From Branchiostoma floridae (taxonomy: Eukaryota; Chordata; Leptocardii; Amphioxiformes; Branchiostomatidae), in NCBI RefSeq assembly GCF_000003815.2, contig NC_049989.1:4005174-4069173 (forward strand): a stretch of 64,000 nucleotides of DNA. Reading direction: 5' to 3'. The notes beneath the pieces are model-generated. The model worked only from the letters and a program-made list of their open reading frames with translations. It was not told the DNA's origin and searched no databases. Shown piece by piece: positions 13,078 through 63,784 of the stretch. Positions within the stretch are counted from its first letter, which is position 1. The number at the start of each line of letters is the position of its first letter. The translations under genes and the position numbers were made by a program.

Positions 13078-13409
13078 CTAGTAGCAATATTTTAACTTAC
13101 TATTGCAGATAACACTAGCATCCTCATCATGGCCGCAGTTATGGCTGCCCCATCCATTGTGGTTGCAGTACTCCAGACGTTCCGCATTTGCACCACAGTC
13201 CACGTTGTCCATAAAGATTGGGCCATTCCCCTGTCCGAATGCTGCACGCCATGGCGCCTCGCGGGCGCTACCGTAGCCGAGCTGACGGCACACCACATGA
13301 GCGTCGGGCAGGTCCCAGGCATCGTCACAAACCGTCCCCCATTGGCCGTCGTGGTAAACTTCTACCCTTCCCTCGTGGTCACCAGATCCACCGACCAGAC
13401 GAACTGATG
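13078..13409 (-). CDS. Gene A exon: SRCR domain 2 (last recognised exon)
   Basis: [37 protein letters not shown] and HNGWGSHNC with six cysteines. The frame runs to a TAG at 13078-13080. A good donor (AATA|gtaagt, exon end 13101) in the usual phase 1 suggests the transcript may instead splice to further exons that I could not find. Confidence 0.85.
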
Positions 13410-14085
13410 CTGTATGTATGTTTGTCATTAATTATACAAGTAAGACTCTCATTTGCATAAATCATATTAGTTGATCATCTCCTTCACAAAAATAACAGAC
13501 GTACACAACCTATATCCCAGTACTGGGAAGCCGATTTCGTCTAGCCCTTACAAGCTTTCCGGTTTATATTACTTTCCCGGCATATATTCCTTTCCCGGCA
13601 TATTCCCGGTTAAAAATCGCGAATCGACACCCCCCTTCCCCAACCCCCGAAAAAAAATCGCCAAGCTTCCCAGAGAGGCCGGTGAAGGAGGCTAGGTAAA
13701 CACTGAGTGCCCGAGAAAAGAGGTTAATTTCTTGAATTATACATTCTCCTCATTAATCGTGTAAACTAAGCCGAGATTTTTATGCAATACATTTCAGGAT
13801 TTCCATCATCACCTAATTTCCAAAGTCGCTCACTGCAGTTCAAAACAAGCCGCCAGGTGGCCCAAACTTACACGACTTACTCCCTGCCCAAAGACGTACG
13901 CACTACTCAAAAGTCATGAACCTGGCACTTGAGGAAAATTTTACCTCCATTTTTTTAAACCTCCGCTGCAGTACCGTAACTCACCGCTAGGAAGCCCATT
14001 ATCGAACTTCACCTTCCTTTCCCCAACCCCTACATAACTACCAAAAATCATACAAATGATCACAACATCGCGAGTTATCTTGTCC

Positions 14086-14120
<35 letters not shown>

Positions 14121-17100
14121 GCTGTAGTGCCGACGGAAAGTGACAGGTTTATTTTCGAATAGGGCTTTCATTTCTGCAACCGCTACTCAAATACCAAATA
14201 TCATGAAAGTCCATCAACAGGTACTATAATTATATGCTGTTGACCTACATATAGAGACACAACATCATGTCATAACCAAAAATATAAACTTCTTGGCGAA
14301 GGTAATAAGAATTACAACTATAACTTTACCTATAACGGCAACTGTACGTATAAAACTTACGTTCGCAGGAAACTCCGGCATCTTCTGAATGATCACAGTT
14401 ATTAGTCCCCCAGCCATTGTGGCTGCAGCCTTGGAGAGCTGACTCTAAAGATAATCCGGAACATCCTACATCATCCAGCCAGATCTGTCCGGACCCCTGA
14501 CCGAAGTGGGCCTGCGTTTGGGGTGTACCAGATCGGTATCCCAGCTGACGGCACAGCACCGTGGCATCGAAAATATCCCACCCATCGTCACAAACTGTTC
14601 CCCATTGGCCATTGTGGTTGATCTCTACTCTACCTTCGTAGTTCCGAGCTCCATTAACCAGGCGGATATGTTCTGACAAAACACACATAGGAACATAATA
14701 CTTGTGGTCTTGAATGTATATTTTCACCTTGAAAATAATTTTGGTAAGCCCCAAAACTTAGTCTTCGTCTTGACCGTATATAGCTCAAATCCTGTTGGAA
14801 TATATGACATTGTTAAGCCTCATATATTACCCTCTGCGATTGTATCATGCCTGCTGCTCCAACCTAGTCTAACTACGCACAAGCACTAAGTAAATAACAT
14901 GTCTACCATGTTCGTACGTCTTGTACAGTAGCTATGTTACAAACGGTTGGATGGGGAAAGATAAGAACATTGTACCTGTAGCGCCAATCATGTAGACGTC
15001 GTTTGCATGTGGTCCACCTTTTCCGTTCCCGAAGCAGTGGTTCGAGGCCCCGTACATCCTGTACCTGTCCGCATCGGACGACCCTGCACACCACCCGTCG
15101 TTTTGCAGGGCAAACACCGTGAAGCCACGAGACTTGGCGACCTGGTAACACTTTTCCACGGCATTTTGGCGGGCTAAGTAGGCCCCGTCCAGGCGAGGAT
15201 CTGACCCCTCGAGAGTTGGAATGGCGCGCTGTGTAGAGTCTGTCCAGCATCCCAGGTGTGAGTATCGCGCTGGGTGTGGGGGAAATATGTACATACAGAG
15301 TTGTGCTGTCGTCCCAAACGTTACAGGGGGCAGTTTGGGAAAATGTTTACTGTAACGATGTCAACCAAATGGTATTGGTCGTCGCAAAAAGTATTGTCTT
15401 TCAGACACGATGGACAGTTTCTATACGACATACAAATACAAAAGTCAACTTTCGTAGCACCTGTTCTTGGTACATGTTACAGGTTTAAGTTTGTTACCGG
15501 TATGTTATGACCGACGCATATACCTTGCTGGCCAATGCTGAATAAATATTCATTCCATCAGATAAACCTCGTCCAAAACGGATGGTGGGAGACAAGGCAT
15601 CAAAATATGTTGGGGAAGACGAACATTACCAAGCGCCAAGATTACGGTAAATCTTCAGCTACTCTCCTCCAGGCCAGTCTCCGTTGCAGTCTTCGAACGG
15701 GCTGTTTTTTATGATCAGCGATGCTCAACGTTGGCTTTGTTCTCTTGTGCCGGGAAAGGGAGTTTACCCAGGAAGGGAGTTTGCTGTGGGAGTTTCCCAG
15801 TAGGAAGCCGATTTCGCCTAGCCCGTACAAGCTTTCCGGTGTATATTCCTTTCCCGGCATATTTCCTTTCCCGGCATATTCCCGGTTAAAAATTGCGAAT
15901 CAACCTACCNNNNNNNNNNNNNNNNNNNNNNNNNNNNNNNNNNNNNNNNNNNNNNNNNNNNNNNNNNNNNNNNNNNNNNNNNNNNNNNNNNNNNNNNNNN
16001 NNNNNNNNNCCAGCCCCCCCCCCCAAAAAAAATTGCCAAGCTTCCCAGAGAGGCCGGTGAAGGAGGCTAATTTTGGCGTGAAAGGGAGTCCCGTACGCCC
16101 CCCCCCCCCCATAAAAACCAGCCCCGTTCCAAGACTGCAACGGAGGCTGCAGCAGAACGAATCATTTGAGAAAGAATTCGAAGTTTCAATCTAACCTGGC
16201 ACTCCAACGGGAACGCAGTTGTAGCCTATCTCTAGGTACTTAGTGACCCCGCCACACGGGTCTCCGAAGACATCGTTGTTCGCGACCACTTCGCAGGCAG
16301 CCAGGCCGTCACATTTGTTCCTCACCAGGAAAGAAGACACGGCAGACATACATGCGCCTGCGGAGTTTATCAACACGTGATTATTTGTTCTTTAAGCATA
16401 TTATGAAATAATGAATGAATGAACTTAATTGCACGACATCTGTACATGGTACAATGTAAGGCACCAGTAATAATTCAATTTATTCAATGACACTCGTCGA
16501 AGGTCTGTAAGTATTAGTACCACACTGTCTCTACTGATTATGAAAGCAAACAGGATGTTAAGCATATAAACATTAATTATCGTTTGTGTACCTGTTCTAT
16601 TATGGGCCCTATGAAACTTGTCCATGTTGGATCATGGAATACCCGAAATGAAAAAGTTCGTTGTTCCTTATGTATTGCATAAAAACAGGTAAATCATGCA
16701 CTCCTTCTTCTAACAAATGTTTACGTAAGGGAAGGCTTTTGCGCCATTCCAGATGCTACTGTGCACCCCCCCCCCCTCCCATGATAACAAATCTTAGCTT
16801 ACCTTGCACAGTTGACGGCGATGAACCATCTGGAACTAACATGTGGAAGAACCATTGTAGTACAAGTTAAACTCCAATGCATGTAAGACACTTGTAAATA
16901 ATAGCGCCAGGTGTTTCTGACACATATGTGTATCATCTGCCGGAGATACATTTTAAGCCAAAAAAGATAGCTAGCTACTTTCCGGCGTCTGACAATATCA
17001 TTATGACACAAACAATCCACTCAGGCGACTTCTTACACAGCCAGTATTGCATCAACCTGGTGGAGAACTAAACTGCTATGATTTAGCCATTACTGTGCAT

Positions 17101-20100: not shown

Positions 20101-23100
20101 TCAAACGTGTCTACAGGGTCATATTAGGCGGATCAATGTAAAAATTGACGTACATCAACTTTTTAATGAGTAAACTACTGGAAAATAATGAATTGAAAAT
20201 TTTCTGATGCTGTCCTTTAAGGTTAACCGGTACCATCTGCATTAAAGCGCCTTTGTTTAGATCTACAGTTTTAGACTTTCAACAATGCTAAAGATTGTTC
20301 AAATGAAAAGCCAAGATGTACTTACATGTTTCACAGTTCGTGCCCTCATACGGTCCTGCGCAGTTGCAATCGTAACGGTTATTCCCATCCACACAGTTTC
20401 CGCCGTTCTGACAGGGGTTCGACTGGCATTCGTTGGTTGCTTTATGTCAATGAAGATGATACATGTATATGGTTGATGGTTAACCTGTCGGCACGTATTC
20501 TTATACAAATGATAAACATGTCAGACTATTTCTGCACAGATCAAGTTTCGAAGTTTGTTCTTACCCGAGCAGCCCGTTGCGCCCGCGGCGCTAGTGGTTC
20601 CAGTCGGACAGGTCTGACAGCCGGTAGAACCGGTGGAACTACTGTACTGTCCGGCAGGGCAGCTTTGACAGCTTGTAGATCCGTAGCTGGAGCTATACTG
20701 TCCAGCCGGGCAGGCCTGGCAGCTCGTGGACCCCTGACTGGAACTGTAGTACCCAGCTGAGCACGACACACAGCCGGTGGCGCCAGTGCTGGAGCTGTAC
20801 TGTCCTGCTGGACACAGCAGACAACTGGTGGAACCAGTGTTGGAGCTGTACCGTCCTGCTGGACAGTCTTGGCAGCTGGTAGATCCCTGACTGGAGCTGT
20901 ACTGTCCAGCTGGACATGGCAGACAGCTTCCGGAGCTTTGGATGGAGTTGTACTGTCCCGCTGGGCAGTTCTGACAGCTGGTGGAACCAGAGGTGCTGTA
21001 TTGACCTGCTGGGCAGTCCGCGCAGCTGGTGGAACCAGTGTTGGGGTTGTACTGTCCCGCTGGACAAACTGGGCAGGTGCTGGATCCACTCGTGGCGGTA
21101 AACCGACCTGCTGGACACGGCTCACAAGGAGTGCCTTTGAAACAAATAAGTCAACGTTCAGGGCACAGCAACAAAGAGGTACAATGCACAGAATGCTGTT
21201 AGAAAGTAAAACAGACTGTAAGATTTTAGTTTGTTATAATGAAGGCTAGTATGAAACGGCACAGTCATGGAACTTCGACTAACTGAATCAGAGGGTGATG
21301 AAGAATAACAAGCCTAAAGCTATTTTTTGCATTGGAAATTTAAAAAAAAGACACCACATTATATGGGAACCAATGCGCCTTTTAACACTAAAAATCCCTT
21401 GACAGAGCCTGGAGTTGGCCAGTCCAAAATGTGGTTAAGTCCAATTTTCTGTGGCTGATCCAAACAGGCAAACTAGAAAGGCAACATTTTCGGGAAAATG
21501 CTGCATGTCTTCCCCGTGGCCTTTTGTCAAGCTACTCACACACAATAACATACCATTCGGTGCGCCCTATAGTAGTACTGTATACCTTAAGCCGAAATTC
21601 TGGTTCAGGTCCGAACCCGAGTCCAGAGATTCAGGTTCAGGTGCTAGGGGCAAACAAGCCATGTACCAGACGATTTTAAATACTATTTATGACTTCATTT
21701 CCAATTCTGAGTTTTGATTGGCTACAGGTGAAAGACGGCTACAGAAACAGAAAGTCTTCCTTCGGGGAAGACTTAAAAATTAGGAATTGATGACCAAGTG
21801 CAAAGATAACTGTTGATTTAAGTCAAAGTTCAATGTTCTGTAATAACCTTCAGAGGCACTGAACTGTCCAGCGGCACAGTCTGTACAGGCCGTCCTGTCT
21901 GCGTTACTGTAGGTCCCTGCCGGGCAGATCTCCTCCACCTCGTCCCCATTCACGCACTGGTGGCCGGGACGACACGGTTCGCAGGAAAACACAGTGCTTG
22001 TTGATCCTGAATCAGCTCCTTTTTCAAATATGCAAAAGAATAGTTATACATTGCATTTGTGACTACAGTATAGACATGTTTTCTTCGTGTCAAATCATAT
22101 TGATATACAGACAAAAGGTATGTAGTTTTCTTTCACACCCGATTCTTTCTCCATGTAAAGCAAAGGTAAATGTAGCTCTTGTGAAGTGCGATGTTATCCT
22201 GGGGAACTTGATTCAAGCCATTCCGATCGTTTGGGTATGAGTAGCGCAAAGTGTCAGTGCCAGAGCTCTCGGTTCGAAGGCTCCGAAGGCTCCAGCCAGC
22301 TTAGTCAGCAAAGGTTATTGGCTGATTGCTTTATATAACATGAAAAGGTCATGGAGATGTAGTAGTAGATACAGATGAAAGGAGATCATAAGACAGATGT
22401 AAGGTTACATAATCAGCCCTTACCACAGACTGGAACGTCACACCGCTGCCATCTCGTGCTGGGATCTGTCGTGTAGCACCAGAGTTCGTGATGGTTGCCT
22501 TTCCGACAGTAGTTCTCCTCCAGCCCTAATGTCGGATGATCTTCAGGTCTGAAACTGTGGCTGTGAGGTGTCTGACTGTCCCAGCGCTGACACGTCTTGC
22601 CAGATTCGGTCACAGAGACTGTTCCTCGGTAGGATGCTCCATCTCCCACCTGGCAATCTCCAGCTGGTTGATGGAATTCAAAAAGACAGTTATCAATGCA
22701 AGCCGTCTTGATTTTCTAGCAGGGTATAACCTTGACTAACTTTGGCGACTAAAGACCACAGTGGTCGTTGAAAATTTGATCGTTTGTCATGATAATTTCG
22801 TGTTGGAAGAAAATTTAGCATTGTACACAGCTTCCATGATGAATTACCGTACCATTTTGCTATCAATTGTGCATTTGACAGTCCTTTTTCAGTCCAACAA
22901 GAAAACAACAGTTTTGTACCTTTACACCATACCAGTACCCACCCTTACTTACGACTGATCGGGGCGGTGTAACTGTCTAAGTTAAATTCTTCCCGGCACC
23001 ACACGTATGGTGGTACTTATGGCGTCGCCCATCACCGAGACGATTAAAAAAGTTAAACGTTAAAGTTTGCCCATACATCCACACATTTGTGCAAGTCACT

Positions 23101-26100
23101 ACAGCAGGGGGCTGGTCCGCTCATAGTGATGTATGTTTAACTTCTATACTCTTCCTCATTAGTGCCGAGTGCTAAGCAGAGAAAGCAGTATGTACCATTT
23201 TTAGTCTTTGGTATGACTCGGCCGGGGATCGAACTCACGACCCACTCGGCCATTGCACCGAGACGATTGATGATATCAAATTGTTGAACAAGTTTTTTCG
23301 GACGACAGGTAATGACAGGACATGTAAACTTTGGTATCGGTTCCGCAGTTTTTGTGCTGGGTGGATAATCAAAGCCGCACACATTGTATACCGTAGTATC
23401 AAACATATAACGGGCAATCATCTTCCTTCGCACGGTCCCCAACGGCTATCTAACTGCCTATTGGGGCCCTGCTATCTGGTGGCCCACTAGCAGTTACTGT
23501 GATTGTCGCCACAAACCAGCTGTCAGCCAATTAGAGAATAGGCCTTTCTTGGGCTTTCTGTTTACGAAAGCCATCTCGCAAAGGCCGCCGGGAATTCTAT
23601 CAGTCAATCATGTTACTTCTTACATAGCTCCATCCTTCTACGCCCGATCCCCAACGGCTGACTGCCCATGTAAGGGTAAGCTCATAAACATTTATAAGCA
23701 TGGCGGTCAGTAACTGATCTGAGTGCACCAGACAACAGAGGTGACCACGAGGAGTTTCGACACGACTGTCAGTAACTGATCTGAGTGCACCAGACAACAG
23801 AGGTGACCACGAGGAGTTTCGACACGACTGTGGTCCCTCTGCGTAGGCTTCCCATCCCTTCCACCTTCACCCCAAGAGAATCTACCAACCAGAATTCGAA
23901 GGGACCGCCTTCTGCCCTGGTTCACACCCTGACCCCAAGAGAATCTACCAACCAGAATTCGAAGGGACCGCCTTCTGCCCTGGTTCACACCCTGAAGTGC
24001 AGGATCCGTCAGAGTTTGTAAAGGTACATTCGGTACAATCGAGAGGTTCAGGCCCGGAACAGACGCTTCTTCCATCACCACTGACATCGGCACAGAGGCT
24101 GCTACATCCTGACGCAAAGAGATAAAGTCATAAGCCATGTAATAATTTCACGTGACGCTAAGCCGCCCCCCCCCCCACTAGACGGCGATCGCGCTGCGCT
24201 CTGACTGCGACCTACATAGGATATGTGTAACCTTCACTTTCATTCTAGGTATATCATACAAGATGTAAAACTGTGACCGAGAAGACAGCAAAACGCACAA
24301 AGTGTAGAAAGATTTTTTTTTCTTTTCTATACCATTCGTTAAGCAATCTGTCAAATTTAAGGTCGCAGAAAGAGCGCGGCGAGAGCATCGTCCTTGTAGA
24401 AAGGGTGTATAATTACCATAGACAAGTAGGCACGAATCACTAACGGACACAGAACGTCAGATATTTAGATTCTTATTTATGGGAACTACTGTATAAAAAT
24501 AGCTATCAAAAGTCGCTTAGCTGAAGTTCAGTCAATTAAAAACTAACATTGACAGGGTAGTCCGACCTCCAGAGTGTCCACATAGCGCGTAGTAGAAGAT
24601 TCCTTATGCCCCTGTCACATATAGGTGGTCACATTGCGCGAAAATCGATCTGACGACGAGTCTGCGGCAATCGCCCAAGCCTCGCTTATGATAATAACTT
24701 TATTGCACAACAATTGTACAAGGTACAAAGTATGACTTATATGTGACTGACGGTTTTCAGTTGAAATTTACGCGCAACCCTCAAATATTGCTGACCTTTG
24801 AACCTTGTCCTAGCAAGGTTCCGAACATTCCAAAACATGCCTAAAAGTCTGTTTTTCCAACACGATAAAAAGCCAACAGCCTTATCTGTAACATCAAGCT
24901 CCAAAATATAAACACAAGTCACTTTTGTCCTAACGCATATATCATGGGTGTGGCTGATCCAGACGTCGGCAAAAATAATAGGGTTTGGTAACTGATCATA
25001 AAAGCTTAAGCGGAGCGTCGATTGGTTCAGCTGCTTTAGGCTTCAAATGTAATGAGGGTAGAAATACGTACTCCTGCACACATTGTTGTCGTCATAGTGG
25101 GTAAGAGGACACTCATCCAAACACTCCACTCTGCCATGGCTGGGAGCACCCTCCATCATTTTCATGCCTACATGTGACAAATAGAAAACAATATAAAAAA
25201 ACTTGTACCAAATAGCTGTCGGACGTAATTTTTCTGCTATCTGTTTAGGGTAGGGGTACTCATTTGTAATATTCATAATGGAGACAATAAGAAATGTAAA
25301 CGAAAAAAAAACAGTCAGATAGTAGTCCAGAAATAATTTGGGTAAATTGAAAAGATGTTTCTAGCAACATGAACAGAATCGTCAAAGACAAAGGCAGCTT
25401 CGTAACTTCGACGAATGTCATGTGAAGCAATACTTATGGCATTGTTTGAGGTATCAGCGCACGGTGCAGCCAAATATTCATATATCTACGTAATCTGTTT
25501 AGACAACAGGAACCTACATTCGCAGAGTGAGGTGCCAGGCGTGAGGACCATGGCAGGAGGACAGGCAGCGGCACACTCAAAGTCACCGTCCGAGCCGTCG
25601 ATGTACGGGTACGGCACCTTCACGTTCATGCAGGCGATGCAGTCCCGCGGGGTGTCCGAGCCAGTGGTTCTACAGCCTAGACATAAAATATTTGTGTTAA
25701 AGTAACTGTATCTATGAAAACACCTACTGAGCAATCACCGTGACTAAGGAAGCTTTGGCGGAGAAAAGTACGTACAACTGTCGAGTTGCACGGAACGTCT
25801 GGACTCAAGCGATATTGAAACACAAGCTTCAGAGCCAATTGGGTTACATATTCATTGTCGGATGGACCAACACAGCAAGTCTAAACAAGAGTTCGGAGAC
25901 CTCATGCCGCCTTGAAATACCTATAGTTCTGCAAAGTTCTTGCTTCATTCTGTCTCATTAATCATGAAGAAGTGTAACTATAGAAGCATTATCTTTACCG
26001 CTTTCTGTTCCTTAATTATATACAAATATACTGCATGTATGGAAGTCCTATCCTTTGGCAGAATTTCATCTAAAATGATCTCCGAGCTTTCTCCAGTGCC

Positions 26101-29100
26101 AATGGACATACGCCAGCGGAAATATTTGGACTTGGACCAATTTCATTTCCTGTCGACTTTCTTGTACTTTGAACCAGTAAGATAGTACTTTTACTGTCAG
26201 TGTCCCCGTGAAGTACTTAGCGTTCAAAACAAACGTTCGGCCACAACAGGAATAAAACCAAGCAATTGCTTAGCATATACTCAGCATGACATCTCTGCAA
26301 ACATTTAAATACCTACTTACCATCACACTCCTCGTGACACGCTTGCAAACATCTTGCGCCTCGTTTCGTTGTTCCTTCACGGCAAACGACGAAGTCTTCG
26401 GCGGGCTGATCCACTTGAGACACCCTCATAACTTTCACCGGATGAGCGCCGCTTCCGAACGCGAAATACTGCAGGCCCAGGACTTTGTCGAATTGGTAGT
26501 CCAACCAAACGTGTGCCCGTTCCTGTAGAACGCGAAGTTATCAAACTATAATGTATCAGACAGATTAACAGTGAGCAAGCAGACTTCGTCCTTTCGCTCC
26601 ATGTGGTATGATGATATGACAGTATTCAAGCAAGAAGACTTGAAGAGGAAATATTCAACATTGGTAGCTATTGCAGTATACGTACATTCCATATGTTCAT
26701 ATCTTTCTTTAAGACATTTTACTTTTTTCTTGAGCACAGAACTGCAAAATGACACTGCCTGCTGCGCGCTTCCTGTTTGTGGCTGAAAAGCTGTCAAAAA
26801 TTGCATATCTACCTCGTTATCCGGTGTCTTGCCGTATTGTATGAGGGTTGTTCCCGCCTCCAAGTTCTCTGTGACGCAGACGAAGTACGACTGGTAAAGG
26901 TGGGCAGCTCCTAGGCCTTTCGCACCCTGCTCCGGTTGTGTGACAACCAACCGCATGGCCTGAACAAATTAAGAAGATCTGCTGGAGTAGATGTCGAACA
27001 CCTCTAGTACGTCAAAGTGTATTTCCTTTCTGATAGATGATACTGGTTATAACCTCAATTATACTGAAAATTTGCAGAAGTAATTCAGAAATCAATCTAC
27101 AATTTATTTTTAGATTTAGCTTTACAATTGCCTCGTTGTCTTGGTGATGAATAAAATGCCTGCCTGAATGAAATACCTTGTACAAAATCACGCCGTCCGG
27201 AGAGATCTCTATGGTCATCCAGGTTTCATGATCGCGGGGAATGCCGGCGAACACCACGAAGATGTCTCCCTCTGACGCCGCCGTGAAGTGGATGCACTTG
27301 CCGCCGTCGGTCGGGTTAACACGGTGGGCGTTGGACCACCGCATGTTACACGGCATGTCTCCCCTATTCAAACTAAAAGAAAATGAAGAAATATATACTG
27401 TAGCTGTAAGGTCTTAGGAATGATGTATAATCCCACTGACAAGAAAAAAAAATAGTAGACTGTCCCCATCAGTCTCTCAGCAGACACGTATCTCAACTGA
27501 AGACCCGTCATTTTCGAGCTTAATCCATTCCTCGTGCGACTACATGCCAAAATTATCTATTCCTATACAGCTACTGCTCTCATTACAACTTTCCGACAAA
27601 GACAGCCAAATCGTACATTTTTTAAAAATTTGGAAATAGCCAATAAAAGTGAAAATCATAAGGCTTGTAAAGAATATTGAAATGCCTTTGGTGATGGCCG
27701 ATCTGCTCCACCAGTGAGCTGTACTCGGCTCTGCCCACATCCATGTCGATGATCCAGTCAGGCAGGCCGCTGATAAGCTGCGAGGATGCCTCGAAGTCTT
27801 CTTGTGTCACGGTGAACAGCCCTGTTTCCTCGTCATACGTCATCACTAATCCTCCTACGCTTACCTGAGAAAAATGCGTGTCAGACAAGAAATTGGCTGA
27901 TACGCACTGCTGTTGATATCCCACAAAGGAACTGCTATAGGCGGATCTACCCCCTCCTGTCCTCTGAGCACGAGGTTTGCTGGACATGTCTTGAGAAGGA
28001 AAGGAGAAATCATCAGCAGTTTTACGGATTACTACGGGCGTCACAATATTTCCACGCAGGAGTCGACAAGATGCTGATGCTGATTGTAGAAAGGACTACA
28101 GCGTATATACTACAAGATAGCATTTAGACGAGTACAGGCGACCTTGCATCAAACAAGATAAACGACAGGTGGATTTTCAAAATTTAGCATCCTTTCATTT
28201 AGAATGTCTATCACTGGTACCCGAAGGGTAGCAACATAAACAAACTACCCGAACTCATGGAGATGACCCCGGCCCAAGGAAAAGTCGTCGAAACCGAATC
28301 CCAGGGACACCTTCGATGTCTTCAAGCTGACACATATAATTCAGGATCACCTGGCAAGAAACAACGATAAACACCTTACCTTATGCGTTGCGGTGTCGCC
28401 ACTGTTGCCGTTCCTGTATCCGTTATAGATGTGTGGATGGAATCTGTCCGTAACAGTCATCCATCTGCCGTTCAGGAACATCAAGTGGAGGGACTTCTTG
28501 GCCTGAAGGAACCTCGGGATGTTGTAAGGCATGTCGATATGGACGATGAATTCTTCTCCGTTGATCATCTCTTCCCAAGTGGGGAATCCGCTGTTAGGTT
28601 CATCAGAGAAGGCCAAATCAGCTGTCTCACATCCGGGCTCTCCGGCCGGGATGGAGAAGTCAGAACTGACTAATGGACCCTTCAGACAAGAAACAAACAT
28701 GATTGAGTGGTCCTTCTGTTTCTGCACTGCACATTCTTCTCTCATTTATGTTGTAGCTTGAACACTTTAAACCTTTTTAAAACCAATCAGAAATGAAAGA
28801 TGGGGTCTTACCTCCTCCAGGTACACAGCGATTGCACGCTCAAGGGCCAGCATCCGGTTGGTCACGCTCTCGACGAAATCCTCCCTTGCGTTGAAGTTAC
28901 AGTAGCGGATGGACGCCATCTCCCGTGTGGTGTTGGCCACAACCGTGTCTTCCACGTAGTACTTCCGGCCCTTTGCGTCCACTTGCAGCTCCTTACTGCA
29001 TGAAAAGCCAGTCAGACGTTTGTGATTCTTAAACTTTTTAATGACAGAAAGAACCTTAAAGTAAATGCAAGCAAATGCAGAAAAACATTGCAAAGATAAC

Positions 29101-44100: not shown

Positions 44101-47100
44101 CATGTTTTAGACGTACACTTAGACGGCGAAACCGAATTATATGTATGTCGAATTGCGGCATAGACAACATGAGTGTGAGGAACTAACCTCCTCAACAGTT
44201 GAACCCACGCCGGCAAGGAGATCTCCTCCCCGGGCGATCACTTTGTCAAACTCCTCGTCTGCCTTGTCGAACTGGCCGGAGAAGTACTCCTCTAGACTCG
44301 ACACTACCTTTTCCTGGTGGTTCTCAACTACTGCCTCCGCGATCCTGTCTCCGAGCGCGTCCACGACTTTCCCGCCGACATCCTGAGCGGCGTCAGCCAC
44401 GAAGGCCGCCACAGCGGGAGGAACTCCCCTCTTCACGCGGTGGTTCTCAGGTTGGTCTTTGGGTACGGCTCTGCTGGGCACTAAACAGGGTGTAATATTC
44501 TACATCAATGAAGTTACAGTGTTCAGTTAGCCTTAGACTACGCACGAAACTTTTCCCCATAACTGAGTTTGTAGACTTGTAGACGGCAGGTGGCAGGGGT
44601 TAAGAGACACGGAATAGGAAGCCGCTCTGTTTAGTTGATAATTGTGTGTTTTCTCCATGTTTCTAACGTTTTTTCCCTAATCTACAGCAGCTTGTACGAA
44701 TGAATCATGTGCAGACCAAGGCGAAATAAAGCATACCAACAAGTTAAACGTAAGATTTCTACAGCGCAACCTATCAGCCCTAGGTTAAACCAACCACACA
44801 GCTGGAGAATCCCAACCTGAGCTACCTGGTGTTCACAAGGCCCATACCGGTCTTCATGATGCCTTCCTCGTCTCCAAGCCATTAATGGCAACACATTTCC
44901 TCATACACCAACGAGCATCATGCAAAAACGGAAACAGGACAAGACAACAGAGCGCCAGGTATATACGGCCAATTATGGTATTCGATCCTTCGCCTTGTGA
45001 CAATCAGGACCAAAGAAATTACAACCAAACGGGGGATTCAAGTGACATCATCTGTGTCAACCAAACCAATTTAGCCCTCACATAGATCTAGACAACGTTG
45101 TAATGGCTCGCCAACTTCACCATGAACGTGTACGTCTACTCCTATACAGACACTTATAACCATAAATCAGTGCTTGAGTTAATGATAACGGCAGGGTGAT
45201 TAGACGAAGAGAAAGACAAATTGCCAGTATGGACCGAGCATTGCTGATGAAAACGCGGAAATTACAATTATGGGAGATCTGAACCTTAACTGACTGGCTC
45301 CAGACAACTCTGGGCAAATGGGAAAGTTCAGGTATGCTTTGTTACGGGCTTCAAGTTCAAGACAGACAAATTTCAATTATTTCACATAGTGCGTAAAAGG
45401 GTTGCTAAGTAACAGCCCAAGTTTCAACTATTTCTGACCAAGAATAGTCTCTCGGGAATAGTTTGGATAACAGGTGTTAGAGAGCTGTCCTCAATGCTGT
45501 GACAGTGGTCTGAGTCTATATGGACAGGTCCCCTGTCATTTGCCAAAAAGTGACAATCACAGGAGTTGAAAACTGCTCACCTTGACACAAGGGGACTACT
45601 CTACCACCATTAAGGCTCCTGAATCTGTACTAAAATGCTGTTAGTTTAGACCTGTAAGCATTTGATTAGAGTACATATTGCAATATAGCCAAAGGATACA
45701 AAAACTGACAAAAAGGACCAAAAAGTATAAAAATGGAAGAATTTCTCAATAAATGTAAGTCAAGGAAGTCAATTGAAGCCTGCCCCATGGTCACATTACC
45801 AATTTCAGGGGAAATCTAAGCCCCAATGGCTAACCTACCCCCCCCCCCCCCACCCCTTAGTGCACAGTATGCACTGTCAGTGAATGCTTGAAACTGTAGC
45901 CTAGAAGCTTTTTTAGATACAAATTTAGGTGCCTAAATTGAGGAACAGTAGCCTCTTTCTGTCTGGGTGAGCAGATTGTACCATTTCTTCCTTCTAAGTG
46001 CCACTTTTTGCAAAGCAATATGGAGCCAAACCATAGCCTTAGAACTCCACCAGTGCCCTCGTAACACCTGAGTTAACTGCTCCCAGGGGACCATTCCTGG
46101 GAGGACGGTCTCCGGGAAGTCTTTGAAACTTGTAAAGACCCTGCCTCGCATCACTCGAAGTGACCGACACTCGTCTACCTTGAAACCCATGTGAAAATGC
46201 TGTGAGGGCACACACCACTTTAATATGCCTGCCAGGCACCTAATGCAGGCATAAGATGTAAGAAAAAGGCTGTCAAAAGTCACCTACCTAAGGTTTAGTT
46301 GGTGAAAAACTCACATTGGCAGGGAAGTCTGACTTCTAAAGAGTGCATATGGCGATTTTGAAAACATTTGGTTCGGCGCAACGCGCCCCCACAAACAGAA
46401 TAAGAAACTCTGGTGACCTTTGACCTCCCTGATAACACCCAAACTATACTTACTCTAGACTGTCTACAACACTGAAAACATGGTAGAAAGCCCATTTTTG
46501 TCCCAAAATAAAATAGCCAGAACCCCTACCTATAATTGTCAGCTCCAAAATGCCAACATTTCCCAACAGAAAGGCTTCTTACACTTACTTTTGCAAGCAT
46601 GTCTGTAATGGTGACCTTTCACCTTTATCAGCTGGAGAACGTCACAACAACAGCAACCACGCTGCACGAAAAATGGGATTTACCAGTACAGTAACGATAA
46701 ATGCCGGGTACGTACTCGTACACCTACACCTTGACTAATCTGACACAATCTAGGATGAACAAGGATGGGTAAGGATGAACAAGGATGGGTAAGGATAAAC
46801 AAGGCTTAACAAGGATGGGTAAGGATAAACAAGGATGGGTCAGGGTGAACAAGGATGGGTCAGGATGAACAAGGATGGGTCAGGATGAGCCAGGATGAGC
46901 GAGGATGAACAAGGATGGGTCAGGATGAACAAGGATGGGTAAGGATAAACAAGGCTGAACAAGGATGGGTAAGGATAAACAAGGATGGCTCAGGATGAGC
47001 GAGGATGAACAAGAATGGGTAAGGATAAACAAGGATGGGTAAGGATGAACAAGGATGGGTCAGGATGAACAAGGATGGGTCAGGATGAGCCAGGATGAGC

Positions 47101-50100
47101 GAGGATGAACAAGGATGGGTAAGGATGAACAAGGATGGGTAAGGATAAACAAGGATGGGTAAGGATGAGCGAGGATGAACAAGGATGGGTAAGGATGAAC
47201 AAGGATGGGTAAGGATAAACGAGGATGGGTAAGGATGAGCCAGGATGAGCGAGGATGAACAAGGATGGGTGAGGATGAACAAGGATGGGTAAGGATAAAC
47301 AAGGATGGGTAAGGATGAGCCAGGATGAGCGAGGATGAACAAGGATGGGTGAGGATGAACAAGGATGGGTCAGGATGAACAAGGATGGGTCAGGATGAAC
47401 AAGGATGGGTAAGGATAAACAAGGCTTAACAAGGATGGGTAAGGATGAACAAGGATGGCTCAGGATGAGCGAGGATGAACAAGGATGGGTGAGGATGAAC
47501 AAGGATGGGTGAGGATGAACAAGGATGGGTAAGGATAAACAAGGATGGGTAAGGATGAGCCAGGATGAGCGAGGATGAACAAGGATGGGTGAGGATGAAC
47601 AAGGATGGGTAAGGATGAACAAGGATGGGTAAGGATGAACAAGGATGGGTGAGGATGAACAAGGATGGGTGAGGATGAACAAGGATGGGTGAGGATGAAC
47701 AAGGATGGGTGAGGATGAACAAGGCTCAACACGGATGCACAAGGATGGGCAAGGATGAACAAGAATGGGTAAGGCTGAACACGGATGCACAAGGGAGGAT
47801 AAGGAACAAGGTTGAACAAGAATGAACAAGGTTGAACAGGAATAGGTAAGGATAGGTAATGATGAACAATAATGGGTAAGGCTGAACACGGATGCACAAA
47901 GGAGGGTTAGGAACAAGGTTGAACAAGAATGAACAAGGTTGAACAGGAATAGGTAAGGATGAACAAGAATAGATGAGGATGAACAAGGATGGGTAAGAAT
48001 GAACAAGGATGGATAAGGATGAACAAGGATGGGTAAGAATGGGCGAGGATAAACAAGGATGGGTAAGAATGGTATAGGATTAACAAGGATGGGTAAGGAT
48101 GAACAAGGATGGGTAAGAATGAACAAAGCTGAACAAAGACGAGTGGATGGGTAAGAATGGACAAGGATGAACAAGGATGAAGTAGGTTGAGGTTAGGCAA
48201 GGATGGTGTAGGATGAATAGGCATTGGCTAGTTTGAACTAGGATTAAGAAGGATAGACATGGATGAGGCAAGAATGGACAAGGATTGCCTAGGATGGGTA
48301 AGGATGGAGCAAAGATGGACAGTAGGATGAAGAAGGATGGGCAAGGAGGCGCAAGGATGAACAAGGACAAGAATGGGCTAGGACTGGCAAGGATGAGCAA
48401 CAGAGAAATTACAGTAACATGAAATGTATGCATACGTGACACAATGCACATTCCTATTTGTATATATGGGACACTAGCTTATTTGCATACTTGTGTTCTA
48501 TTACGTCTGTATGTGTACTTCTCTCTCTCATATTTCATAGCATTAGAGGATCTAGGAATAGAAGCCAGGTTAACAAAGGGGACATTGACAAACTCCAAAT
48601 GTTGCAATATAGGGCGGGCAGGGTAGTATTAGGGTGCGACCACACTCCCAGGGAAACTGTTCTGAACCCACCAAGCAAGGCACTCTACGGTTTGTCTCCT
48701 CCACACTTATCACTACATTTGCTGATACATATTCTCACCACACCCGGCACAGTCCAGGGGGGGGGGGGGGTACATTGAAGTATGACACTAGAAGAAGAGG
48801 TCTCTCTGATTTTCGGACGCAGCCTTGTGAAGATCGTTGCCTCCGCACTTAAGAGCAGTAACGTTATCATCCAGTCTCAACTTTCAAAACCAACTACACA
48901 ACAGAATACCACATGGTTTTAGACGTAATCTGTTGTGTCTTTTTTCCTGCTCATATTGGTATGCAAATCCATCCCTTTCCATTTCATTTTAATTATGATC
49001 TCTATTTATATTCAAATTAACGTTGTACAATTGATTTGCCGTTAGCTAAATTGCTCTAATATTTGTTGATTCTTGCTGTATTAACATTTATTTATTTGAT
49101 ATTGTTAACGTTATTGATTACTGTTACAGTATGTTGTATGTATGGGTCCCCCCGATCTTTGCAAAACGACAACCCTGGTTAAATAAAAAAAAGCAAACAT
49201 AACGCTATAACAAATACAATACCCTATCACGGCCAGGTTTTGAATGTTTCCATACAGTTGGTCATCCCTAGTATCCCATGCATGAATGCAAAATTGTATC
49301 TATTCATTTTACCGTCATTTTAGAAAACAAGTGTTATACAAAGTCGCAGAATTACCAGCGTTGTGCGTTATACAGCTTGTGAAATAAATCATCTCCAAGG
49401 AAGACCCAAACAACCCTCTATGGTACATGGACAGGCATGAATAACAAACTGTGCAAAGTCTATACTTTAAAAGCTTTTAAACTTTACGGTCGTAGCCCAT
49501 AATAACTTGCACAGTACTCACCGGCCGCACCCCCTGAGAAGAAGGCCATGACGCCGCAGATACAGAAAAAAAGTCCCCTCCACATGTCGAGACTCCGATG
49601 TTCTGCTTCTTTTCACCAGGCAAGTAGAAGCTACGAAAGTTACGGGGAGGAATTAGTTAGGTTTTCAAGTACATTGTGTTAATCATTGTACATTGTAAGC
49701 TTTACATGGTTAGTGCTATAAGAATTTCATAGCCATTATTGTTAGTGCTAATAAATTGTTTGGGGTTGGGGAATAAATATCAGAAAAGAATTAGAATACG
49801 TTTCTCAATTTGTGCGTTTCTGTGACATGATATCAAGCTGATAAATTTTATTTGGTACAGATACCTCTTCTTCTAAGACCTACACTTTCATTTAGATATG
49901 TCAAGAAATTTCTGGAGGAAAGATATTGTACATGTACATGTTAAAATTCTGTTCACGAGAATTCACGAGAACAATATAACGAAGCGTTAAAAGATGTATA
50001 TATGGATAGATGCAAATCTTGGGATCCACTTTTTCATCGAGACGAGCAAAACAACTGGCAATTCAGCAGGAGTGTAGATTGTGAACAATGTGGCACTACA

Positions 50101-51678: not shown

Positions 51679-51689
51679 ATCTTTGTATA

Positions 51690-53409: not shown

Positions 53410-54770
53410 CGATGTAGTATTTTGATTAAATCACTAGTAAGAAGGAAATGATTGGGTCTACTAGTAAAAATGTGACAGTACCTCTCTATCACATGAATTC
53501 ACTAGCATGAGGGAAAAGATGTGTCTATTAGTGAAAATGTGATAGCACCCCTCTATCACATTAAATCACTAGTAAGAGGGAAAAGATTGTGTCTATTAGT
53601 GCAAATGTGACAGTACCCCTCTATCACATTAATTCACTAGCAAGAGGGAAAGATGTGTCTATTAGTAAAATGTGATAGCACCCCTCTAACACATTAATTC
53701 ACTAGCAAGAGGGAAAAGATTGTGTCTATTAGTAAAAAATGTGACAGTACCCCTCTATCACATGGATTCACTAGTAAGAGGGAAAAAGATCTGATTGTGT
53801 CTATTAGTAAAAATGTGATAGCACCCCACTATCACATTAATTCACTGGCAAGAGGGAAAAGATTGTGTCTATTAGTAAAAATGTGATAGCACCCCTCTAT
53901 CACATTAATTTACTAGCAAGAGAGAAAAGATTGTGTCTATTAGTAAAAAATGTGACATTAACCCTCTATCACATGAATTCACTAGTAAGAGGGAAAAGAT
54001 TATGTCTATTAGTAAAATGTGATAGCACCCCTCTATCACATTAATTCACTAGCAAGAGGGAAAGGTTATGTCTATTAGTAAAATGTGATAGCACCCCTCT
54101 AACACATTAATTCACTAGCAAGAGGGAAAAGATTGTGTCTATTAGTAAAAAATGTGACATTACCCGATGTAGTATTTTGATTAAATCACTAGTAAGAAGG
54201 AAATGATTGGGTCTATTAGTAAAAATGTGACAGTACCCCTCTATTACATTAATTCACTGGCAAGAGGGAAAAGATTGTGTCTATTAGTAAAAATGTGATA
54301 GAACCCCTCTATCACATGAATTCACTAGTAAGAGGGAAAAAGATCTGATTGTGTCTATTAGTAAAAATGTGATATCACCCCTCTATTACATTAATTCACT
54401 GGCAAGATGGAAAAGATTGGGTCTATTAGTGAAAATGTGATAGCACCCCTCTATCACATTAATTCACTAGTAAGATGGAAAAGATTGGGTCTATTAGTAA
54501 AAATGTGATATCACCCCTCTATTACATTAATTCACTGGCAAGAGGGAAAAGATTGGGTCTATTAGTGAAAATGTGATAGCACCCCTCTATCACATTAATT
54601 CACTAGTAAGATGGAAAAGATTGGGTCTATTAGTAAAAATGTGATATCACCCCTCTATCACATTAATTCACTAGCAAGAGGAAAAGATTGGGTCTATTAG
54701 TAAAAATGTGATAGCACCCCTCTATCACATGAATTAACTAGTAAGAGGGAAAATATTGTGTCTATTTTTT
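53410..54770 (+). repeat. Satellite array of ~68-bp hairpin units
   Basis: About twenty units of the form CACTAGTAAGAGGGAAAAGA-TTGTGTCTATTAGTAAAAATG-GATAGCACCCCTCTATCACA. Each unit has the inverted pair AATGTGATAG / CTATCACATT around a short loop. One internal GATGTAGTATTTTGATTAAA near 54166 repeats the sequence at the array's left edge, so the array has duplicated in blocks. Confidence 0.9.
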
Positions 54771-58900: not shown

Positions 58901-61102
58901 AACTGTAAAAGAGAGAATGTTCACCAGTGCTATCTGTGCTTTCCATATTAAAGCTGCTTACAGTCAAACAACCACAAGTCATATATGACAGGGTCAGAAC
59001 CACCAACATCTCACACCACCACAACACAAGACTGTCACACAAAGGGTGTTTCATACTACCCAAACCCAGAACCAAACCTCTCACCAGGCCGTTCCTTTAC
59101 AGATGCACAAAGACATACAACTCACTACCAAGCAACTCCATATCAACAAACAGAATTCAAAAACAGACTGGAGTAAACAAAACAGCATCACTGAGTATGT
59201 GGTGGTAGTATGATAAAATAGTTTTTGTTGTACAGTGTATAACGTTACATATTAGTACATACTACACCAGTCCGTCTTTTCTTTAACATATGTACATATA
59301 TTCTTATTGTCTAATGTAGGGTGGTTAGAAAGAATGACCGCGGAATTGTCTATTATTTCTTAAAGATATGTTGTGGCCAGATACTAGATGGAGCCAAGCT
59401 AACGTGCGCGCGCGCGTGAGTGTGTGTTTTTATTGTTACTTTCGTGTCCTTATGATTGTTTGATGTTGGTGACGTCCTCACTACAGCACCTAGGATTGCC
59501 AAGGACCAAACGACAAACCATCATCGTTCCAAGAGAGCTGCTCAGGCAGCAATCGCCAAGTTTGCCGGAGAGGCTGCCATGGACATCGGCGGGAAGGTCG
59601 TGGACGCGCTGGGAGACAGGATCGCGGAGGCAGTGGTGGAGAACCACCAGGAGAAAGTGGTGTCAGGTCTGGAGGAGTACTTCTCCGGCCAGTTCGACCG
59701 GGCAGACGAGGAGTTTGACAAAGTGCTATCACGTGGCGGGGACCTCCTTTCCGGCGTGGGCTCAGATTTGAAAGAGGTTTGTACTTCGTGCTACATCGAG
59801 GATATCATATGTTGTATCAAATGACATCAACGGCAAGCAAAATCATGTCATACCTCGGCCGCGATAAAGTCCGATACGGGTGCTCCGGGTGCTCCGGCCC
59901 GGGTACCCGGGTGAACAAAGATCTTTATTGTACATTTTCGCCCAAACAAGCTAAGTACAGGTCACACAAAGACAAAACATGTATATAGACGTATCACAGC
60001 TCTAGAACAACACGGACGTTCGGCTTCTTCTCGCTTATTGGTAATGGTGAAAATGTAGGACTGTAAATATGAATCTGTCAGTGCTACTCATACGTATAAA
60101 GTGAGGGAATTGCTTTCTATATAACTAAATAGAGTATTTCTATCATTATCATGCATATTACAATATTCATCTTCTACCGTCTTTAAGTTACAAAATTGAC
60201 ACACTCTTTGTTGAGAGCACGCTTCTCGGGGGGTGGGGGTGAAAGTATCGACTGTTTGAAATTGATCCGGTTTCAGTCAGGAGCTGCATCACAGTACAAT
60301 CCCAGCACAATAAACCATAATATAACTCGATGTAATGAATTAATCTTTGATATGAATTCATGTTGAACATATTCTGCTGGTTAAGGTCCAGAATATCATT
60401 ACCCTTTTGGACACACTCAGTAAGTTATTGCAAAGGTAACATTTTTTGGACAAATTCAAAATCATTCAGTATTTTTGGATGTGGCTCAGCTATAAGACTG
60501 AAATTGCATTTGGTTGTTCTCATGATGTTCAGGCTAAACTGACCATGATTAACGGCAGAGGCTCGAACACCGGGGACACCTTCTCACCACCTGACCAGGA
60601 GATCCGCATGGAGTTTGAGCATGTTGATGACAGGTTAGTCGCTAGTCTAATAAGATGCTGTCTAGTCGCACTTGCTGTAGGTTGTAGGTGGCAGGTAAAG
60701 TCTCCCACTACTCTTCCATTCATTTTCTAAGGTCGGCTTGTACACATAGGTAAGTTATCCATAAATATATGATGAAGTTATCAGCTTTTATCGCTTTCTC
60801 GTAGCGACGAGGGCACCACTGACGGGATCACCCCGATTTCCTACCCGATGGGTCTGGGGTCTGTTCTCATGAACGGCTGCTTTGGCACCAACTATTCAAC
60901 CGGAGATCCCTGTTACGAGGCTTTCGTGCCGATAGAGGCTTGTGCTGTAAGTATGGACTGAACCAATTGGCAATGTCGATCGATATAACCATATCCATAT
61001 CTAAATGTTTCTATCGCTATCTATCTATCTATCTATGTATATATAGAGAGAGTGAGATACATGTAACTACTCACACACACACACAAACACACACACACAA
61101 AG

Positions 61103-61137
<35 letters not shown>

Positions 61138-63784
61138 AAGACACACACCCATGGCCATGCATTACCAGCCCAAGACTATCAAAAGTATTGATATACGGTA
61201 TATGTTACATTTAGTATACGAAACGTACATAGGTAATAAGTAGTGCTTTATTTGTACTCCGCTCACAGAATATCATTGACGGAGCAACTTTCCTGGGTGT
61301 TGGGTTTGACGGCCGAGGTGAATATTCAACCGACTCCAGGAAGAAGAGCCTCATTCAGCGATCCTGCAATGGTCTACAGGGGTAGGTTTGTTTTTCTTGA
61401 CGACAAAGGTACCCTTGTACGATTTCTCTCCAAGTAATATTGTTCAAATGTTATCGTCATTCTTGTGCAGAAACTCATCTGCTAAAGGGGCTCAAAATCT
61501 TTGACTCTTAAGTGCAAGTTTTACGAGTACAATTGACACAAGATTCTTGACACGTATCTTACGTTTGAAGACTTTCTTCTAAGTTGGATTGCTATTTCAT
61601 GGTGTCTTCTCCGTAGCTTCACTTATTTCATCCCCTTTTTAGCGCAGACAAGTGTAATTTCACGTCGCCAGCATGTTTCGTAACGCGGTGGTGCCTCACG
61701 CCACATTTCATTTTCAGTGTCCTTGACGTAAATGTTACTTCATCCTAGATACAAGGAGTTCCACGTTCCCGACACCATGACCGTACAAGGCATCTACAAC
61801 ACCGACGTGGAGACCTACAGCTTCACCTCCGTGGAGGAATACAGGCAGTATCTGGAGACCAAGTCTTCTGTGACGACTGCTACGGCCATGTTCCAACAAG
61901 AGATGAACAAGGTCCAAGGTCATCTAGCCAAAAGCGGCGTATTTGGGCTGTTTTATTCCGTAGGCGTGGGCTTCGGCGTCCAATGGGGAAGCGACTCTGA
62001 AGCATCTGCATTGTCAGCAAATTCCGCAGCTTCTGCCGATCTAAGTGAGGGCACCACCCAAACGTTCGTAGCCATGCTGGAGCTTAACGTTTACAGGTGG
62101 GTAGCTCTTTCCACTCTGCTGCCCGGGGATGTAACTGGCCCCTCCCCGTAGAGTTTGTGCTCCTCCTGCCATAAGACGAGGGAAGAAGTTACAGAAAGTA
62201 GTAACACCAATGGTAGGCCAAGATTCTGGTCAAGCCTATGATGCCGACCGGATGTTGGTTGGGCTGCTATAAGCAAGATCTAATCAGGCTAGTTCCTTCC
62301 AGCATACCGGGAATATTATAGGCAAGTATAATGGACAATACCCGTGTTTTAATGGCAGATTAACAATACACAGATTACCAGTACAACTTGTGTCTCCTAA
62401 TCAACAAATCACTTCCAACCAAACACAGATATATCAATGTCAAACGTGCTATCTAACTAGGTACGAGATCTTTTTGGACTTTGTCACACCGGAAGACTTG
62501 AACCTGGCTTTCCTGAGGGATTTCCTGGGACTACCTTCAACATACTTTGCCATTGGAGCAGACAGGGAGTTCCGTAAGTGCAGTATATCTTACCAAAAGG
62601 ACATATTCAAGCTGTACTGTGATGGCTCAAGGATTATTCTAACGTTGTTTCGAAATTTGGTGCCTCCGTTGTCCTTTTGAGGTGATAATTATGGTTTTTT
62701 ATTCAAATTTTAGCCACACAATGAGTGCACGCACTATCTTAGTCTTTTGACCTTAATTTATTAATGTATCCATAATTGAAGCTGTACAACTCTATAATAT
62801 CGATGAAATGGGGGCAAGGTAACATAAGCGACAAGGTAGGGAGATTGGAGAATAGACAAGGACAGCAGCTGCCAGAATAATACCTTATGTTGAGTTATGT
62901 CATGCCATTCCTCCCGTTCAGAAAACTTCCTCTTGCGCTGGGGAACACATTACATCACTTCCGCCAAGTTCGGCGGGCAGCTGAAGATCGTCAAGGTCAA
63001 AGAAGCCACCGAGGAAGACAATCAAAGTACTTTCGCTCAGGCTGCCCAGGCTGACTTCAAGCAGCTCTTCAGTACCTACACATCCGTCCAAACACAGATC
63101 AAGTCCAGCAGCTGGTGGCACGATCAGGACTTCAAGACTGACTCACAGCTTTCTTCTGGCTCGTCATCAGCAGATTCAGCTTCACAAGAGTCTCTAAGAG
63201 ACCAAGCAGCCAGGTGAGTTTCTACTCCTATTTCACCCCTTCGTGTCTTTGTTCTAGCCGGTCATTGTCTGAGAGTGTGTGCAATCACAGGAGTCTGTAT
63301 GATTTATTGATTGATTGAAAACATTCCTTTCACGTTGGTCCTGTTAAAAGCACACTACGTTGAAGCCTTTTGGAATAGCTGCTTCAGTTAAAATAATTTT
63401 GCCGGTGTAGTTCAGGTGGGAACAACTTTGTTGTATTTCTGCTGTATTTTCTGCCAATAATGTTAGCCTGGTCCTGTTCGTGGTCATGCGAAGCTTGTTC
63501 AATATCATCAGTGATCTTTGCTAACGGAACGTTGCATTTTACAGGGTAACGACGGACTACAGCAACGAGTTCATGATTGTGCAGGGAGGGAACCAGCAGA
63601 TCGCAGCCGCCATCACCGAGTTCTACACGACTGCATTCGGATCCGAGCTCAAAAGTTGGCTGGACTCCATCGAGGAGTTCCCGAAAGCCTTTGAGTTCAC
63701 CATGGCGCTGATCACGGACCTCTTCGACATGAACTTCGACCTACTCTTCCCCCATGGTCTTTTGGATTACGGCTGCTTCGGAAG
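55935..63784 (+). CDS. Gene B: secreted MACPF pore-forming protein (5' part, cut by window end)
   Basis: Nine coding exons: 55935-55998, 59487-59776, 60533-60633, 60805-60946, 61269-61381, 61749-62096, 62461-62573, 62922-63213 and 63545-63784, all in phase and all with GT-AG introns. The protein has a signal peptide, a furin-type R-S-K-R at residues 35-38 and a MACPF domain with the signature [14 protein letters not shown]. It is a close paralogue of gene A: seven of nine exon lengths are equal and the other two differ by 3 and 6 nt. A secreted, protease-processed pore-former is inferred. The rest, including any lectin tail, is outside the window. Confidence 0.87.
56450..58545 (+). repeat. 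Four decayed tandem copies (~600-700 bp) in gene B intron 1
   Basis: Related blocks start near 56450, 57050, 57670 and 58370. Each has GGATATTAAACTG- and ACTTGTCTGTGTG-like motifs, a GGGTACNGT(A/C)CAG-like motif, then ATGTTGTCTGTGTATTATTA. Divergence increases toward the first copy. Confidence 0.7.
58930..59215 (+). pseudogene. LINE C-terminal fragment in gene B intron 1
   Basis: RVRTTNISHHHNTRLSHKGC and RPFLYRCTKTYNSLPSNSI match the C-terminal end of non-LTR retrotransposon polyproteins (TR...FxYxxxxxxNSLP). Short and isolated. Confidence 0.6.
59487..59776 (+). CDS. Gene B exon 2: propeptide site and N-terminal helical region
   Basis: A short polar segment ends R-S-K-R, then comes [20 protein letters not shown] as in gene A. 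Acceptor ctacag|CACCT, donor GAG|gtttgt. 290 nt versus 293 in gene A. Confidence 0.87.
60533..60633 (+). CDS. Gene B exon 3
   Basis: 101 nt, acceptor gttcag|GCTAAA and donor ACAG|gttagt. Shares GRGSNTGD with gene A. Confidence 0.86.
60805..60946 (+). CDS. Gene B exon 4
   Basis: 142 nt (148 in gene A). Encodes [19 protein letters not shown] and [10 protein letters not shown]. Donor GCT|gtaagt. Confidence 0.86.
61070..61148. repeat. (AC)n microsatellite
   Basis: AC dinucleotides with AAAG interruptions in gene B intron 4, preceded by a short (CTAT)n tract. Confidence 0.9.
61269..61381 (+). CDS. Gene B exon 5: MACPF N-terminal strand segment
   Basis: Translation identical to the gene A exon over all 37 complete codons; same splice phases. 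Confidence 0.88.
61749..62096 (+). CDS. Gene B exon 6: MACPF core with putative membrane hairpin
   Basis: 348 nt. Where gene A has its glycine run, gene B has FGLFYSVGVGFGVQWGSD, more hydrophobic and aromatic. The donor is a normal GT (TACAG|gtgggt). Confidence 0.86.
62461..62573 (+). CDS. Gene B exon 7: MACPF segment
   Basis: [20 protein letters not shown], nearly identical to gene A; 113 nt in both. Confidence 0.87.
62922..63213 (+). CDS. Gene B exon 8: MACPF signature
   Basis: Contains [14 protein letters not shown] and a Gln/Ser-rich second hairpin region. Donor CAG|gtgagt, where gene A has a GC donor. Confidence 0.9.
63545..63784 (+). CDS. Gene B exon 9: MACPF C-terminal part (last in window)
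   Basis: [20 protein letters not shown] and [14 protein letters not shown] match gene A. Donor AAG|gtacgt, phase 2; the gene continues beyond 64000. Confidence 0.88.

Follow-up and report, generated by a model that had tools for sequence, protein, structure and literature searches.

Can one lancelet gene couple a membrane-perforating domain to a long series of recognition modules in a single chain, and is it alone in doing so? The question is raised by a 64,000-nucleotide stretch of the Branchiostoma floridae genome (assembly GCF_000003815.2, contig NC_049989.1, positions 4,005,174 to 4,069,173; hereafter the window), in which two genes encoding MACPF domains, A and B, lie head to head. An earlier interpretation, here called the sequence-only reading, had gene A linking MACPF in one frame to an array of lectin, scavenger-receptor and other modules, as a one-chain version of recognition plus attack. 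Gene structure and domains support that idea, and we consider it probable that gene A belongs to a large MACPF family of the lancelet whose head stays constant while the tail varies, and that the secreted protein would dock through its tail and make a pore with its head.

We modelled gene A with a custom gene finder (codon bias and splice consensus, with a continuous frame required) and corrected the model against the homologous exons of gene B and further paralogs; a homology-weighted run of the finder over-extended exons and served as a guide only. The resulting gene runs from 49585 to 13101 on the minus strand and comprises 28 exons and 1,947 codons with no stops, the frame being kept across every junction, in good agreement with the 28 exons and about 1,943 codons of the sequence-only reading. 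Its modules run in the order signal peptide, RVKR, MACPF, beta-rich module, Cys-rich collar, kringle, Ephrin_rec_like/GCC2, EGF-like, PAN-like, SUEL lectin, WSC-like and two SRCR domains (Table 1), and all 13 exons from the first of the collar (f1) to the second SRCR exon (sr2) are phase 1-1. Some details of the earlier model had to be corrected. The 12 kb intron separates 42012 from 29842; exon b2 is 27864-27686, and a candidate b2x (27989-27867) from a first model fell away because gene B conserves the overlapping b2 in a different frame; and the 3′ end is left open at the last SRCR exon, because a GTAAGT donor follows it directly at 13100 while read-through, the end previously assumed, reaches a stop at 13080-13078. 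A membrane-bound scavenger receptor would have SRCR domains and a transmembrane segment; the gene A model, up to its open end, has two SRCR domains. Mini exons called by the finder (for example, 46661-46623, 43751-43731, 19714-19694 and 16829-16803) had no paralog support and were dropped, the frame being intact without them. The first intron holds a tandem array (46752-48126; 20-bp unit, about 70 copies), and the collar–kringle intron holds two adjacent tandem duplications (23706-23831, 62 bp, 100% alike; 23862-23995, 63 bp, 97% alike).

Above the curated Pfam cut-offs, the joined gene A protein matched MACPF (E = 2.6e-16; 60.9 bits against a cut-off of 21.5), Kringle (7.5e-23), Ephrin_rec_like (2.2e-26, six stretches, overlaid by NCD3G at 2.7e-10), SUEL_Lectin (9.4e-17) and SRCR (5.7e-62, two copies, with SRCR_2 at 1e-8 on the same stretches). 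This part of the previously listed domains, GCC2 included, thus stands; the furin-like module on that list has no Pfam support, and the beta module and Cys-rich collar matched no Pfam family at E up to 1. The beta module is 57–65% identical across seven other aligned loci, and its profile found no credible relative among PDB sequences (a P450 reductase at E = 0.27 was given no weight). The top PDB match to the MACPF part was complement C6, weak at E = 0.064 and of little weight. The MACPF signature Y/W-G-T/S-H-F/Y-x6-GG (as given in PMC3667788) is intact, as a 13-residue stretch, in gene A and in 12 of the 14 loci listed, gene A included, departing at C9_10.81 and C2_26.27. In the 628-residue N-terminal part, MACPF was the sole match, with neither TSP1 nor LDLa found at E up to 1. 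Perforin-1 has a C2 domain after its MACPF; neither C2 nor ApeC (PF16977), the domain of the apextrin proteins, turned up when the joined protein was scanned against Pfam at E up to 0.1. Rfam gave no matches at its gathering thresholds.

Gene B, the head-to-head partner, is real as well. A plain DNA comparison of the two genes gave 15 matches, one for each core exon (sp, n1, n1b, n2–n5, m1–m3 and b1–b5), with at most about 20 bases of flanking intron included, and gene B runs past the window end to position 5296 of the first piece (L049) of the 20 kb that we added beyond it (L049-L050), so that the first 5.3 kb there is still gene B core. The first exons are 59% identical in amino acids and 82% in DNA, and both genes carry a convertase-like site, RVKR in gene A and RSKR in gene B. 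Across 838 codons, dN is 0.179 and dS 0.72 (dN/dS about 0.25), which shows that the heads are under purifying selection. A core-exon tree of 22 loci with uneven coverage placed A and B together (support 0.997). Synonymous differences are far fewer in exons n3 (43068-42956 and 61269-61381; 2.9 observed against 12.8 expected) and m2 (29409-29170 and 63545-63784; 11.3 against 25.9) than in the other core exons (heterogeneity p = 1.7e-8, from a rough count of synonymous sites), which suggests gene conversion within the inverted pair. Between the two start exons lies a tandem array of about 20 copies of a 68-bp unit (53425-54766).

Is the arrangement peculiar to gene A? We searched the whole 513-Mb assembly (431 contigs). 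By hand count, the MACPF exon m2 has at least 54 matches, at least 26 of them close (51–99% identity, A and B included) and at least 28 distant (36–48%). Collar exon f1 is present at at least 24 of the 26 close loci, each time on the same strand and downstream of the head; among the matches listed, the close loci without it are gene B and C2:6.89M, and collars without an m2 match lie at C3:34.03M and C14:20.22M. The distant loci lie on contigs C9 (15–17 Mb), C17, C18 and others, most with beta-module matches. A kringle-plus-collar query gave nearly all kringles elsewhere among its best 150 matches, none listed outside gene A at an m2 locus, which does not imply absence. By these sequence matches, the combination is not peculiar to gene A: head and collar recur together at two dozen loci or more, with tails that differ.

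We sampled tails as 10 kb from the collar onward at 12 of the 23 other close collar loci (L051–L062; some pieces contain N). Exons f1, f2 and f3 follow in order in all 12, and 10 (L053–L062) have at least one tail domain above its Pfam cut-off, in nine different orders; the tail of gene A differs again (Table 1). All 23 tblastn matches to gene A tail exons, spread over 10 loci, are on the MACPF strand. As a control at E = 1e-3, the same exons matched nothing else in the window and nothing in the 20 kb beyond it. Loci L051 and L052, 96–98% alike over most of their first 4 kb, are perhaps haplotypes. Before its SRCR exon, L055 has a 42-codon Cys-rich exon (5233-5361, minus-strand orientation) that matched no Pfam family.

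Two of these paralogs bear directly on whether head and tail belong to one gene. In L059, the GCC2 array shares a single stop-free frame of 284 codons with collar exon f3, and L055 holds b5 and f1 within one exon; in these paralogs, beta module and collar, and collar and tail, are thus tied without any splice being assumed, which argues against an artefact of gene prediction. From GCC2 on to PAN, SUEL, WSC and SRCR, the link in gene A is predicted from strand, phase and likeness to the paralog tails. The alternative is that two neighbouring genes have been wrongly joined, one a MACPF gene that stops close to the collar, the other a lectin and scavenger gene in its own right. Lancelet gene models do carry such errors, expressed sequence tags having shown one fusion (a Lectin_C/fn2 model) to be an annotation error (Banyai and Patthy 2016, PMC4967905); the joined chain of gene A is predicted from genomic sequence; and gene B is a head for which no tail was found in the 20 kb added beyond the window. 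However, on several contigs the paralogs carry tail modules after the collar and on its strand, the single exons of L059 and L055 join the very parts in question, and no convincing second signal-peptide exon lies between 26.3 and 13.1 kb. When the minus strand was scanned between 12 and 51 kb for first exons that resemble signal peptides, five candidates emerged, of which only 49585-49522 is convincing and none lies in 22,400-27,000, where the sequence-only reading had said that a second start and a poly(A) site would betray two genes. Between 26.3 and 13.1 kb the scan gave two minus-strand matches against one on the plus-strand control, and both look spurious, since the coding stretch ahead of the donor lacks hydrophobicity. 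Poly(A)-like hexamers on the minus strand of 22,400-27,000 number one against 4.7 expected, which is uninformative. We regard two wrongly joined genes as quite improbable.

The tails also appear to have moved between heads. The collars of L053 and L054 are near-identical (dS 0.20) and their tails differ within the sampled 10 kb. Conversely, L055 (C2) and L056 (C6) have old heads, with a collar dS of 2.6, near saturation, and share a tail (6171-9596 and 3057-10000, minus-strand orientation) in which 3,326 covered bases are 97–99% identical and the WSC exon has a dS of 0.05; L056 has an extra block holding C-type lectin exons. Either a recent interchromosomal exchange or an assembly chimera would explain the shared tail, the latter being possible because alleles can show such identity. 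Our confidence is evenly divided on the broader proposal that at least two dozen MACPF genes encode one-chain pore-formers in which the head is constant and the glycan- and scavenger-recognition tails have been recombined by interchromosomal exchange of phase-1 exons, partly very recently (as in the tail block about 98% identical on the anciently diverged heads of L055 and L056), as a germline repertoire that would couple recognition directly to membrane attack without a complement cascade.

Several observations weigh against our reading of gene A. The model is predicted from genomic sequence, and the phase 1-1 pattern is supportive rather than independent because the finder requires frame continuity. 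The EGF, PAN and WSC modules of the earlier domain list fall below their Pfam cut-offs (hEGF, 0.048, 14.6 bits against 29.3; PAN_1, 5.9e-4, 20.1 against 21.4; WSC, 5.9e-5, 23.6 against 27.8); exons like all three recur in paralog tails. With the gene A tail exons as query, tblastn gave nothing at L052 or L054, and the 20 kb beyond the window yielded neither a collar nor a tail exon for gene B, which looks tail-less over that length. A 100-N gap (15910-16009) separates the final three exons of gene A from the rest. All its acceptors are AG and its donors GT, except for GC at 3 of 27 (exons n4, m1 and b2, ending at 42265, 29551 and 27686); in the paralogs compared, GT stands at n4 and m1 and, for the most part, at b2. 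Such donors may belong to a normal minor class or may signal early decay; taken with the poor n1 acceptor (score −7.7), they could point to a copy in decay or to an error in the model. Another reading is that the family is real but gene A itself is decaying or mis-assembled: its GC donors, weak n1 acceptor, 12 kb intron and N-gap would allow this, and the near-identical tails of L055 and L056 show that an assembly chimera is possible. Set against this are its 1,947 codons with neither stop nor frameshift and its dN/dS of about 0.25 against gene B, and we judge a decaying or mis-assembled copy improbable.

We propose that the gene A chain would be secreted by means of its signal peptide and probably trimmed after RVKR by a convertase. 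The mature chain would consist of the MACPF head, the family-specific beta module, the Cys-rich collar and the lectin and scavenger modules, each of which enters and leaves in phase 1, so that exon shuffling would make the tails differ among copies. SUEL domains bind galactose or rhamnose and SRCR domains polyanions; the tail would most likely dock the protein on microbial or other glycans. The head would then insert into the membrane as an oligomeric pore, like perforin and complement C6–C9. A head that no longer forms pores is the other possibility, the protein being secreted to act in adhesion, in the matrix or in development, in the manner of astrotactins or Torso-like, or serving purely for recognition. 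Matrix roles also suit long adhesive tails, and a MACPF domain is not proof of lysis: PcPV2 of the apple snail agglutinates red cells without lysing them (PMC3667788). The signature motif, however, is intact in gene A and most of the loci listed, the convertase-like site in both A and B is zymogen-like, and the family's expansion and tail variation resemble defence. The MAC/perforin domain is, moreover, enriched among dispensable genes of B. floridae and Branchiostoma belcheri (PMC12373286), which fits a fast-changing defence family. We favour a pore-forming, defensive role for gene A and hold loss of pore formation to be rather unlikely.

Table 1. Exons and features of genes A and B in window coordinates, and the tail modules of the sampled paralogs in order
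Feature	Position	Strand	Content and support
Gene A exon 1 (sp)	49585-49522	-	21-residue signal peptide; first-exon scan; homologous exon in gene B
Gene A exon n1	44468-44188	-	RVKR convertase-like site; matched by gene B DNA
Gene A exon n1b	44000-43900	-	matched by gene B DNA
Gene A exons n2, n3, n4, n5	43398-43251, 43068-42956, 42612-42265, 42124-42012	-	N-terminal part up to and into MACPF; gene B DNA matches
Gene A exons m1, m2, m3	29842-29551, 29409-29170, 28995-28812	-	MACPF core, YGTHY-x6-GG signature; Pfam MACPF 3.2e-15; gene B DNA matches
Gene A exons b1, b2, b3, b4, b5	28679-28380, 27864-27686, 27372-27177, 26959-26813, 26522-26321	-	beta-rich module; gene B DNA matches
Gene A exons f1, f2, f3	25676-25518, 25167-25072, 24108-23953	-	Cys-rich collar; in order in paralogs
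Gene A kringle exon	22663-22424	-	Pfam Kringle 1.6e-23
Gene A exons g1, gcc	22018-21848, 21134-20565	-	Ephrin_rec_like/GCC2 array; Pfam Ephrin_rec_like 1.8e-36, six stretches
Gene A EGF-like exon	20439-20326	-	hEGF below cut-off; homologous exon after GCC2 array in L057-L060
Gene A PAN-like exon	18372-18151	-	PAN_1 just below cut-off; 45-49% identical exons in L051 and L053 tails
Gene A SUEL lectin exons	17616-17488, 16357-16196	-	Pfam SUEL_Lectin 1.3e-18; 9.4e-17 without a doubtful mini exon
Assembly gap (100 N)	15910-16009	.	within gene A tail, between SUEL and WSC exons
Gene A WSC-like exon	15269-14976	-	WSC below cut-off; 58-64% identical exons in L055, L056 and L061 tails
Gene A SRCR exons	14672-14361, 13409-13101	-	Pfam SRCR 2.6e-64, two copies
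Gene B, head-to-head paralog	55935 (start); window part to 63784	+	exons sp, n1, n1b, n2-n5, m1, m2 in window; m3, b1-b5 beyond
L051 tail			PAN (below cut-off), C-lectin-like fragment (0.03)
L052 tail			PAN-like (20.8 bits, below cut-off)
L053 tail			GCC2, SRCR, SRCR, PAN (below cut-off)
L054 tail			F5/8, then run of N
L055 tail			short Cys-rich exon, SRCR, WSC (below cut-off)
L056 tail			C-type lectin, WSC (below cut-off)
L057 tail			F5/8, PAN (above cut-off scanned alone), GCC2, EGF
L058 tail			GCC2, EGF, C-type lectin
L059 tail			GCC2, EGF-like (below cut-off), CUB, F5/8
L060 tail			PAN (above cut-off scanned alone), GCC2, EGF, WSC (below cut-off)
L061 tail			GCC2, C-type lectin, WSC (below cut-off)
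L062 tail			GCC2, EGF (just below cut-off), C-type lectin; order as L058

Downstream of gene A, at about 150-5505 of the window on the minus strand, predicted exons with repeated C-x2-C...H-x-H most likely belong to a C2H2 zinc-finger gene.

Known systems resemble parts of this arrangement. Like complement C6–C9 and the lancelet C6-like protein, gene A, known from its sequence, would encode a secreted MACPF protein with flanking Cys-rich modules; lancelet C6-like, however, is described as TSP1-LDLa-MACPF-EGF-TSP1 (PMC11312191), whereas gene A has no TSP1 or LDLa match in its N-terminal part at E up to 1 and has a lectin and scavenger tail. Apple snail PcPV2 likewise links recognition, through a tachylectin, to a MACPF head, but is described as two disulfide-linked chains with one lectin (PMC3667788), whereas gene A is predicted to be one chain of many modules. 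Ciona Ci-MACPF1 is a secreted chordate MACPF protein with accessory modules, but these are given as ten TSP1 repeats and an EGF, without lectin or SRCR (PMC6109156). In the lancelet itself, phase 1-1 domain exons are reported to have spread among genes (Huang et al. 2014, PMC4284660), but the main text of that paper does not name MACPF, and we found in it no constant pore-forming head with variable tails. The sequence-only reading had taken the gene A combination to be new. At the level of titles and opening lines of abstracts, our literature search found no MACPF protein with it, although a 2008 paper on the lancelet immune repertoire, outside that search, may mention the family; mollusc surveys were among the matches listed for literature naming MACPF, SUEL and SRCR together. 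What changed is its standing as a peculiarity of gene A, given the recurrence of head and collar with differing tails described above.

The family also touches a published dispute, in which the domain combinations of lancelets are held to be genuine (Huang et al. 2014) or to stem largely from errors of gene prediction (Banyai and Patthy 2016); the single exons that physically join modules in paralogs of gene A speak for genuine fusions. Provided that they are expressed, the genes of this family would unite recognition and killing in one polypeptide of a chordate, diversified by exon swapping, in contrast to complement, where recognition and pore are separate proteins.

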